Of a stretch of 64,000 bases of DNA, positions 59,614 through 64,000 are shown in pieces. The notes beneath the pieces are model-generated. The model saw nothing but the letters and a program-made list of their open reading frames with translations. It made no database searches and was not told where the DNA came from. The translations under genes and the position numbers were made by a program. Origin of the DNA: an uncultured bacterium (lineage in GTDB: Bacteria; DRYD01); contig CAKZQG010000006.1 of assembly GCA_937139605.1 (NCBI GenBank), positions 91,133 through 155,132 on the forward strand. Direction: 5' to 3'. The first letter of the stretch is position 1, and the number at the start of each line of letters is the position of its first letter.

Positions 59614-61308
59614 ATGGAAAAAGTAGGGATAATATTAGGTAATAAACAGAATACCCCTTATGAATTTTATTTTCTAATATCTAATGATGCGTTAGTACAA
59701 TTAGATGATATAGTATATACAAAAACTACAATAAAAGATATAGAGATCTATCATTATGGGATAGTAGTAGATATAAAAAAATATACAGAAGCAAGCAATT
59801 ATGCCATAGAAACAGAATTAATGTATAATAATAAAGTTCCATATTTAAATATTTCAGTAGCAAAAGTACTAACAACAAGAATAGAACCAGAAATTTATAT
59901 TCCTCCAAATCCAACTAACGAAGTATATAAAGCTAATATAAATCATACTGAATTAGCGCTATATTTTGATAAAATGGAAAACAAAATTCCAATTGGGTTT
60001 TTAAGAGATAACAATATAGCATACTTAAATTTAGATTTTATAGATGGTACAAACGGAGCGCATATAAATATAAGTGGAATGTCAGGAATAGCTACCAAAA
60101 CAACTTTTGCTACCTTCTTATTATTCTCATTATTTCAAAAATCCTCTCAAGCACATACATATAAAGCTATTATATTTAATGTTAAATCTACAGATTTATT
60201 ATATCTTAATAAAAAAAATAATTTCAAAAACTTAAAGAATACAACTAAAGAACAAATAATAAAAGAGTATGAGCTACTTAATCTAAAACCTGAAGAATTT
60301 AAAAATGTATCAATATTAGTCCCTCCTAAAAAAAATTCAATATTAAAAGAAAAAGATATCCCAGATACCTCTATTACTTCATATTTATATTATTTTACTT
60401 TGTCAGAAATAGCTAAAAACAATTTATTTAAATTCTTTTTTGTTGATGAAATCAAAGATTATCAAAATTTAGAAAGAATAATTTCTTATATAGAAAAACA
60501 TTTAGCTATATTATTAGATTATACTATCCAAAACGATAAAGAACTATATAATAAAGGAATTTTAATTGCAAAAATAAAAGACAAAAAAATTCAATTAGAA
60601 AACTTAGAAAATCTGTATAATTATTTAGAAGAATATTTAAGAATAAACAGGAGTGAAATAAATGAAACTACTGGCACTATTTTTGCTTTTTTAAGAAGAT
60701 TCAGGAAAATAAAAGAAGATTGTAATTTCTTACTTTCCTCAATTACCAACGATAAAATTAATATAATGGAAAAAATAATTAATAGTAGCTTAACAGTAAT
60801 AGATGTCCATAACTTACCTGAAAAAGCCAAAAGTTTTGTAGTATCTTCTATTTTATATTTAATATATCAAAAAAAAGAAGAAGAACAAGATTTAAATAAA
60901 TATTTCTTTGTAATAGATGAATTAAATAAATATGCTCCAGCTAACTTAGATACTCCAATAAAGGATGTATTAATAGATATTTCGGAGCGTGGTAGAAGCT
61001 TAGGGATAATACTAATAGGAGCTCAGCAAACCGCATCATTAGTAGAAAACAGAATATTATCTAATTGTGCAATAAAAGTAGTAGGAAGATCTGATTCATT
61101 TGAAATCTCTAAAAGCTATTATTCATTTTTAAATGATGAACTAAAAAAAAGAGTAATCATATTAAAACCAGGGAATATGATAATTTCCCAACCAGATTGC
61201 CCATTACCAATAGTAATAAAATTCCCTTATCCCGCATGGGCTACCAGAAAAGAAGAGGTCGATACAACCCAAGAAATCCAACACCTAAATAAACTCTTTA
61301 AAAAATAA
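59614..61308 (+). CDS. HerA/DUF87-type ATPase
   Basis: 564 residues. An N-terminal HAS-barrel-like part (EKVGIILGNKQNTPYEFYFLISNDALVQLDDIVYTKT...) and a FtsK/HerA-like ATPase: NISGMSGIATKTTFATFLLF (Walker A-like, with A-T before the Lys instead of G-K), YFFVIDELNKYAP (Walker B), ISERGRSLGIILIGAQQTASLV and LSNCAIKVVGRSD. Similar ATPases move DNA, sometimes with NurA nuclease; no nurA is seen here. Confidence 0.75.
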   Translation: MEKVGIILGNKQNTPYEFYFLISNDALVQLDDIVYTKTTIKDIEIYHYGIVVDIKKYTEASNYAIETELMYNNKVPYLNISVAKVLTTRIEPEIYIPPNPTNEVYKANINHTELALYFDKMENKIPIGFLRDNNIAYLNLDFIDGTNGAHINISGMSGIATKTTFATFLLFSLFQKSSQAHTYKAIIFNVKSTDLLYLNKKNNFKNLKNTTKEQIIKEYELLNLKPEEFKNVSILVPPKKNSILKEKDIPDTSITSYLYYFTLSEIAKNNLFKFFFVDEIKDYQNLERIISYIEKHLAILLDYTIQNDKELYNKGILIAKIKDKKIQLENLENLYNYLEEYLRINRSEINETTGTIFAFLRRFRKIKEDCNFLLSSITNDKINIMEKIINSSLTVIDVHNLPEKAKSFVVSSILYLIYQKKEEEQDLNKYFFVIDELNKYAPANLDTPIKDVLIDISERGRSLGIILIGAQQTASLVENRILSNCAIKVVGRSDSFEISKSYYSFLNDELKKRVIILKPGNMIISQPDCPLPIVIKFPYPAWATRKEEVDTTQEIQHLNKLFKK

Positions 61309-62173
61309 TATCATCTTTTTTAATTAATAAAAATTACTTAACTATCTCATACTCAAAATTAACTAAATCCTTTTTTACCCTATCAAACTCTATTCCTACA
61401 AGATAAATTTTTTCATAATTTAGATATTTTTTATGATATTCTTTTTCCCTAATTTGTTTTAACGCCTTCCCTTTTTCTTCTTTCTTCTCTATAACGAAAA
61501 ATTCTATATTTGCCTTATTTGAGTTATCTGAGTTATATGTTAATATTACTTTGAACTCTATTATATATACTATTTTTTTATCCACTATTATCGTTAAATC
61601 TATCCTCCCTTTTGATGTATTATCTTCTATTATCACATCTAATCCCGTTGTATATAACATACTATATACTGCTATTACATAACTATATTCCTCTTTTAAA
61701 TACATATAACTTATTGCACTTATTAATATCTCTATTTGTTCTTTTAACTCTTCTATTTTTTCTGTTTTTAATATCTCTATTATTTTTTCTGCTATTACAT
61801 TTACCTTTGATTTCTGTTTTATTAAATTATATAATATATCTCTATTAAATGATACCCTTACTTCCTTATTCGGAAATCCTAATTCAAACAATATCCCATT
61901 TTCACTTACCTTATAATCTCTTATTGTTAAATATCCACTTTGAAACATTATCGCTTCTATCTCTATCTCTTCTACATCAAATCTATTTAATAAACTCTCA
62001 TCGGCTTTTATCCCTTCTAATTCTACTATATTATACTCCTTTTGTTTTATTAACTTTATTAAAAAACTTGGTGTTCCTGTTTCATACCAATAACTCCTTA
62101 TCTCTTTTTTTCTTAAATATAACAACACATCAAACGGATTATATACTTTACTGCCTAAAAAATTATACCCATT

Positions 62174-62207
62174 ATAACGAACGCAGTATGCGTGAGTTAT
62201 ATGAAAT
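62174..62207 (-). repeat. 34-bp hairpin element, copy C
   Basis: On the coding strand ATTTCAT is followed by a hairpin: ATAAC-tc-ACGCA-tac-TGCGT-tc-GTTAT. It is in tandem with copy B, inserted between the Tyr and Asn codons of REWYNGYN. Confidence 0.9.
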
Positions 62208-62241
62208 ATAACGAACACAGTATGTGTGAGTTATATGAAAT
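62208..62241 (-). repeat. 34-bp hairpin element, copy B
   Basis: Same as copy C except the inner stem is ACACA/TGTGT rather than ACGCA/TGCGT, two compensating changes on opposite arms. Outer stem ATAAC/GTTAT is unchanged. Confidence 0.9.
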
Positions 62242-62917
62242 ATACCATTCTCTTACTTCTTCTATATTTACATTATCCAGATACTCTCTAAAATAATGTT
62301 CTAATTCTTCTTGGGTATATCCACATATATCTCCGTATTCCTTGCTTAATGAGATATCCTCTAACTGATTTAACCCACTAAACAATGATACTTTCGCAAA
62401 TTTACTTACTCCCGTTACCAGCAGAAATTTTATATATTTATCTAATCCCTTTAATACTGAATAAAATCCTTTTAACATTTCTCTTACCTCATATACTTCT
62501 TTCTTATCCATTAAATCCAATATCGGTTTATCATACTCATCTACTAACACTACTACTTGTTTTTTAGTTTCTTTAGCTATATGCTCTATCAATAATCTCC
62601 ATTTCACATACACACTTAAATTCTCTTTTATTTTATAATCATATATCTCTGAATACCTTAATATAACTGAATATATTTGCTCTTCTAATAAGTGTTTATT
62701 TAACGTTTGGATTTCCCCAAAATCTACCCTAATTACAGGATATTTTTCATTCCAATCCCATTTATTTTCTATGTATAATCCCTTAAATAATTCTCTTTTA
62801 CCTTCGTATAGATATTCAATAGTAGATAATAATAAAGACTTCCCAAAGCGTCTAGGTCTACTTGAAAATACATACTTTGAAGTACTTAACAATTCATATA
62901 TATACTTTGTTTTATCT

Positions 62918-62951
62918 ATAACGAAGGCATAAGCCTAATGTTATATGAAAT
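62918..62951 (-). repeat. 34-bp hairpin element, copy A
   Basis: ATTTCAT then ATAAC-att-AGGC-ttat-GCCT-tc-GTTAT. Ends match copies B and C (ATTTCATATAAC at the start and TTCGTTAT at the end), while the inner stem and loop differ but still pair. It splits the V codon of NYVYVDKTK. Confidence 0.9.
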
Positions 62952-63120
62952 ACATATACATAATTTCCCGTTATTATATTCTTAAAATCACTTATCCCTA
63001 TCAGTAATCTCTTCATTTATTCTAACCCTCCTCAATTGAATTATAAATTATCACATCCTTTTTAATATTTTAATTATAATAAAAAAACTCCTTGTTGTTT
63101 ATAAGAAATTATACTAAAAC

Positions 63121-63183: not shown

Positions 63184-64000
63184 TTACTTTTGTCCAAACT
63201 TAACTCTTGCTCCTAACCACAACTGATTACCCTTCCAATCCGCATTATCTATTGTTAAAGCACCTGCATTGTTTTGGAAATTCTTACTATCAAAATTCAA
63301 GAACCTATAGTTTGCAAAGAAATTAACATCTTCTGATACCTTCCAATCAAATCCTACTCTTAATGCATTGCTATCATATGACATATTTTCTCCTTGGAAG
63401 TTTGCATCATCTTGTTGTTGGAAGTATTTACCTTCACTTGTTACTGCAGTATATGCAACATGCCATGTCCATTTCTCATTTGCAAAGAATCTAAACAATA
63501 CATCAAATGCCCTTACATTGTAATCTATATTATCTTGTGCGTTATTTGCAGTAACTGGTATCTTTCTTTGGACATCTGTATTATAGTATTGCCCTGTGAA
63601 ATCGTACTTACCACCTTGGAACTTATAATTAAATCCTATATTAAATGTATTTATATCTCCTTTCTTGAATACATCTGTTGCTACTGTAGTAGCTCCAGTA
63701 GTTCCAAAGATTGGTTCATAGAATCCCCATCTAACTTGAGTACCAGCTATTGCAGGATCATTATCAACTGTCGTATCTTTTTGAGTTAATCCTTCATACA
63801 TTGCCCATCCTAAGAATGCATCACTAAACTTATATTGAACATTTATTCTTACTCCTTGTCTATTATTTGGATATGCTTTTGCATCATGAGCTGTATATGT
63901 TAGTTGATCACTATTAAGAGCTGCACTATTAAGAGCTGGTTGATAAACAGGATATGGTAATTGTCCCCAATATAGATTGTCATAATACCCTACACCTGGG
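63184..64000 (-). CDS. Beta-barrel outer-membrane protein (porin-like), C-terminal part
   Basis: The frame stays open to the right edge of the window, so the N-terminus is missing; the track ATG at 63801 is internal. The 272 residues seen have the alternating strands and turns of a beta-barrel (FNIGFNYKFQGGKYDFTGQYYN, WTWHVAYTAVT, ALRVGFDWKVSEDVNFFANYRFLNF) and end with GNQLWLGARVKFGQK. G+C is visibly higher than in neighbours, which suits a highly expressed gene. An S-layer-homology N-terminus, seen in some porins of deep-branching diderms, cannot be checked here. Confidence 0.85.
   Translation of the reverse strand, partial: PGVGYYDNLYWGQLPYPVYQPALNSAALNSDQLTYTAHDAKAYPNNRQGVRINVQYKFSDAFLGWAMYEGLTQKDTTVDNDPAIAGTQVRWGFYEPIFGTTGATTVATDVFKKGDINTFNIGFNYKFQGGKYDFTGQYYNTDVQRKIPVTANNAQDNIDYNVRAFDVLFRFFANEKWTWHVAYTAVTSEGKYFQQQDDANFQGENMSYDSNALRVGFDWKVSEDVNFFANYRFLNFDSKNFQNNAGALTIDNADWKGNQLWLGARVKFGQK

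Follow-up and report, generated by a model that had tools for sequence, protein, structure and literature searches.

What are the short hairpins that interrupt a nuclease gene in this bacterial genome, and how did they come to lie there? The window, a stretch of 64,000 nucleotides analysed as a whole, comes from a 1.88-Mb draft genome (G000) and carries on its minus strand a gene of the AAA-ATPase_like (PF09820) / PDDEXK_9 (PF08011, formerly DUF1703) family, in which the Pfam match of the upstream piece is PF09820 and that of the downstream piece PF08011. The original prediction held that three 34-nt hairpin units interrupt a single 526-residue frame at two places. These units are real, at coordinates one off from those first given, and dropping them by script does restore a single frame of 526 codons. 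Their register is ambiguous by 1 nt. All three have the ends TTTCATATAAC and TTCGTTATA, and the unit pattern matches the window three times versus none in 100 dinucleotide shuffles. A fourth insert had been overlooked; it is 54 nt long and in frame, has the same ends as the 34-nt units without a clear inner stem, and has a second copy in contig C42. The features in the window are as follows:

61334..63016, minus strand: interrupted copy of the family gene (PF09820 + PF08011), probable pseudogene
62917..62950, minus strand: site 1 element, 34 nt, frame-breaking, between codons NYVYV and DKTK, TA duplicated
62207..62240, minus strand: site 2a element, 34 nt, inner stem ACACA/TGTGT, first of a tandem pair, between REWY and NGYN
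62173..62206, minus strand: site 2b element, 34 nt, inner stem ACGCA/TGCGT, second of the tandem pair
61490..61543, minus strand: site 6 element, 54 nt, in frame, adding 18 codons after IEFKV

Convergent to this gene lies a HerA-like ATPase gene (window 59614-61308, plus strand) with weak PADLOC mad8/HerA matches. A fragment of a similar ATPase gene adjoins another family gene at G000:C42:1-4000, which suggests that the pair was duplicated together. An open frame elsewhere in the window, probably of an outer-membrane protein, encodes AALNSAALNS through a perfect 15-nt tandem repeat (two copies of CACTATTAAGAGCTG) at 63909-63938.

The same genome contains 20 exact element matches, all at shared sites in paralogues of the window gene. 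Seven other paralogues hold similar inserts at identical positions. The original prediction had looked to intact homologues in relatives for comparison; within the same genome, nine paralogues have clean empty sites. It had also put forward a genome-wide covariance-model search. With a model built from the different element types, all significant own-genome matches fell within one paralogous family, at a handful of fixed sites already known, and none lay between genes; the copies are thus not dispersed genome-wide. Nine distinct insertion sites are now known from one genus, eight in the nuclease gene family and only one outside it, in an HD-domain pseudogene. Those additional to the window are:

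Site 3 element: 21 nt, in frame, own-genome paralogues, from a looser pattern search
Site 4 element: 34 nt, reversed, frame-breaking, own-genome paralogues, from reading the paralogues
Site 5 element: 36 nt, in frame, own-genome paralogues, from reading the paralogues
Site 7 element: 36 nt, reversed, with TACAAC/GTTGTA, own-genome paralogues, from reading the paralogues
Site 8 element: 36 nt, in frame, two paralogues of the sister species G001
Ninth-site element: outside the nuclease family, in an HD-domain gene of G001 with several other lesions, from the covariance model

One of the two site 8 carriers is an otherwise open frame of 520 aa, and the own-genome homologue of the HD-domain gene has an empty site, GFSYNVANAIKF. 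No elements were found in five other genomes of the order. When about 85,000 species genomes and IMG/VR were scanned, with the stricter patterns only, the matches were just coding or chance ones. Those in Methylophaga and other Gammaproteobacteria proved to be one conserved coding stretch, presumably carB-like, rather than elements; those in Methanocaldococcus, Bacteroidia and one IMG/VR contig had been preselected by pattern, scored 26-29 bits after this preselection and were judged to be chance. One search gave 30 exact element matches, all on the minus strand (contigs C3, C4, C5, C6, C9, C12, C28, C33, C35 and C45), which is probably chance or an assembly convention, contig orientation being expected to be arbitrary.

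The elements are typically 34-36 nt long (range, 21-54 nt), and their consensus, preceded by TA, reads TTnTCATATAAC-nnn-stem-TAC-stem'-TC-GTTATA. An outer stem, TATAAC/GTTATA, encloses an inner one, four to five pairs long, with a TAC-type loop, and the central part varies by site. The stems covary: 97.6% of cells are paired versus 24-51% in slid controls, counts that lean towards the structure because the rows were hand-padded to fit it, and 15 cells are double-changed with no G-U intermediate. Folded as single-stranded DNA, most types are more stable than their shuffles (z down to -4.4), and a decayed copy in G001 has largely lost its inner stem. Filled sites read xxTA-element-yy, where the right end repeats the TA, and sites without an element read xxTAyy; both the empty sites and the TA repeat are seen at sites 1-7 and at site 8. 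Exact pre-insertion alleles are preserved in paralogues at site 4 (C33), site 7 (the edge of C35) and site 6 (C5b). The prediction of a small, precisely inserted hairpin is thus supported by the empty sites in paralogues, the presence of elements in both orientations and the copy in an unrelated gene. The units matched none of the named families tested, and the inserts had no match to the curated Rfam models up to E = 1.

The repeated gene family and its fragmented draft assembly, in which several contigs end inside family genes, could have produced such inserts as an assembly artefact, but the inserts turn up at several separate loci whose flanks differ, their number varies (site 2 holds 0, 1 or 2 of them), and other sites are occupied by relatives in the separately assembled sister genome, so that we give an artefact almost no weight. 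Equally improbable is that the units are site-specific recombinase sites, loosely loxP-like, for shuffling the paralogues. The length of 34 bp, the inverted ATAAC and GTTAT arms and the mosaic make-up of the paralogues would fit, but lengths run from 21 to 54 nt, the central part depends on the site, and recombination is spread over the conserved parts of the gene and is equal in copies without elements. The loxP resemblance itself was rejected, as element length and core vary.

The inserts at sites 1, 2 and 4, each of 34 nt, break the frame, and those at the remaining family sites have lengths that are multiples of three. A copy with an insert at one of sites 1, 2 and 3 tends to have the others as well (r2 about 0.5), so that the copies divide into eight carriers and nine free ones. 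The carriers show the following private changes:

Carrier C4a: frameshift
Carrier C4b: serine to TAA
Carrier C5a: tryptophan to TGA
Carrier C5b: +1 frameshift
Carrier C9: start codon loss and a 14-nt duplication
Carrier C45: GRID to GRIN at the presumed catalytic Asp
Window carrier: eight replacement changes and no silent one, two at otherwise invariant positions
Carrier C33: no private lesion shown, the copy being cut by a contig end

An independent stop, frameshift or start loss is thus present in five of the eight carriers versus none of the nine free copies (hypergeometric calculated by hand, 56/6188, p about 0.009). In the N:S of private changes the two classes do not differ (31:28 in carriers versus 36:29 in free copies), so the case for pseudogenes rests on the private lesions. 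Given these, the frame-broken carriers, the window copy included, are most likely decaying pseudogenes, and the shared inserts probably preceded the private damage. To call the window gene otherwise intact, as was first done, is too generous in view of its private replacements, which include a P to L change within MKRLPIG and, immediately ahead of the Walker A segment, one of L to S. The site 2b copy at G000:C4:24610-24644 has an extra T (35 nt), and a 1-nt deletion of the gene lies about ten bases downstream.

Short, structured, frame-breaking inserts in otherwise long reading frames also recall translational bypassing, in which ribosomes would hop each hairpin and the interrupted genes would stay functional. 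At site 2 the inserts lie between matched TAT/TAT codons, and as a class the carriers have no higher N:S of private changes, both of which would suit this reading. The border codons are unmatched, however, at site 1 (GTA/ATA) and site 4 (CTA/ATA), nine insert-free paralogues remain, and bypassing cannot mend the further lesions of the carriers, namely nonsense mutations, frameshifts, start loss and the catalytic D to N change. Because most carriers are privately damaged, we consider functional bypassing very unlikely.

Every site has its own stem sequence, and copies at the same site are nearly identical, yet within 30 nt their flanks diverge by roughly 10-18%, a difference similar to that between filled and empty sites. 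Within 30 nt of the inserts there is a weak, marginal excess of similarity, marginally in line with short copied tracts, and beyond 30 nt there is none. A position-by-position profile shows little linkage anywhere in the conserved parts of the gene family, which indicates that the family is thoroughly recombined. We therefore dropped the lack of linkage between inserts and their flanks as a special feature, since the conserved parts of the whole family are without linkage too. The combination of site-specific stems, near-identical copies and diverged flanks points to a probable single entry per site, followed by copying through recombination among paralogues. Loss of mismatch repair was ruled out as the cause of the recombination, MutS1 being present. 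In G000 the family genes have two variable segments, whose alternative versions are combined mosaic-fashion among the paralogues, and strong linkage blocks lie near codons 95-140 and 290-420. In G001 there are about 32 PF09820 matches in 1.6 Mb, and several family genes stand in tandem at G001:C73:7200-17000.

Homing, in which one element would target a shared site in many paralogues repeatedly and independently, bringing little flanking DNA or none, would also produce nearly identical elements whose flanks differ within 10-30 nt, and would fit insert presence being at background linkage with flanking variants. That linkage is lacking throughout the conserved family parts deprives the second point of its special character; in addition, each site keeps its own element type, which is unexpected from a common mobile source, and there is the slight excess similarity within 30 nt. 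Homing is therefore improbable in our view. A speculative variant of the spread, to which we would give an outside chance, is that the elements are selfish hairpins without a transposase of their own: when paralogues recombine, the hairpin loop in the heteroduplex would escape mismatch repair and be kept, and the insert would pass between copies at one and the same site with almost no flank. If this were true, the element would be one confined to a highly recombining multigene family.

The explanation that we favour, and hold to be likely, is that very small mobile palindromes of the SDR/REP/RPE kind, forming a family not described before, knocked out copies of a multigene family. These palindromes would have inserted at TA, duplicating it, in either orientation, each site being entered once by a hairpin or single-strand mechanism, and the inserts would then have been copied among paralogues by frequent ectopic recombination in the gene family. 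At sites 1, 2 and 4, inserts of 34 nt would have shifted the frame and killed their carriers, which then may have decayed and tolerated more inserts, and the family inserts of 21, 36 and 54 nt would add peptides in frame. Several points count against this explanation. No transposase of the expected kinds was found: the Y1 tyrosine transposase (PF01797) had no match in G000 (88.5% complete) or G001, and DDE_3 (PF13358) had none in the draft genome, where absence is no proof. The lack of intergenic copies in the search is odd for a freely moving element, the N:S of private changes is alike in carriers and free copies, the evidence for co-copied short tracts is marginal, and the assembly is a draft with contig ends inside family genes.

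The palindrome explanation would add an undescribed family of near-minimal mobile palindromes, in a setting where a single genome shows sites with and without the element, covarying stems and the death of genes. If spread by recombination among paralogues is true, such an element can persist in a multigene family with no obvious transposase, encoded or borrowed. The elements would also serve as markers for tracking recombination in the widespread, uncharacterised DUF1703 family. Like the paralogues here, the DUF1703 expansions of Cardinium are reported to consist of many readily recombining members (PMC6387759); unlike the situation here, no hairpin inserts are mentioned in the excerpt of that paper considered.

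Among known systems, the cyanobacterial small dispersed repeats (SDRs) are hairpins of about 21-27 nt with compensatory stem changes and precise insertion at defined sites. They are not known to have a transposase. Compared by description only, SDRs resemble the elements studied here in being short, precisely inserted hairpins; the present ones, unlike SDRs, have a TA target, are mostly 34-36 nt long and are nearly confined to one gene family. SDR5 is inserted precisely within HIP1 (PMC4390886), and the cyanobacterial repeats are the 'very small mobile repeated elements' of Elhai et al. (2008, Genome Res), as cited in PMC3733652 and PMC4390886. The REP/REPIN sequences (PMC3733652) are likewise palindromes of 20-40 nt, sometimes inside genes and single or paired. 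REP/RAYT palindromes, however, have a GTAG tag at one foot (PMC3733652), which is absent from the present consensus, and neither a Y1 transposase in G000 or G001 nor extragenic copies were found here. Rickettsia palindromic elements (RPE; PMC3733652) are palindromes inside reading frames, some in frame and adding peptides, as here, and CGTC repeats also lack a dedicated transposase (PMC3733652). The CGTC palindromes and RPE-4 and RPE-6 carry a CGTC tag at one end (PMC3733652) that our consensus lacks, and in contrast to RPE and CGTC palindromes the elements described here are nearly confined to one gene family, with frame-breaking copies frequent.

The TA target and TA duplication are shared with the MITEs of IS630/Tc1-mariner, but the present elements are far shorter, and no DDE_3 transposase was found. 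They have no terminal inverted repeats, the left end TTTCATATAAC not being the complement of the right end TTCGTTATA; only the inner TATAAC/GTTATA pairs. The bypassed inserts of T4 gene 60 and of Magnusiomyces mitochondria are also short and frame-breaking, and the genes that they interrupt keep working (PMC5009743). Here, by contrast, the carriers are further inactivated and the border codons are unmatched at two of the three frame-breaking sites, although several Magnusiomyces cases likewise lack perfect border codon matches (PMC5009743). In having a conserved hairpin with compensatory stems and, from the empty homologue sites, precise insertion, the elements agree with very small palindromes, and they are best called members of the broad kind of very small mobile palindromes, unusual in their near-confinement to one gene family.
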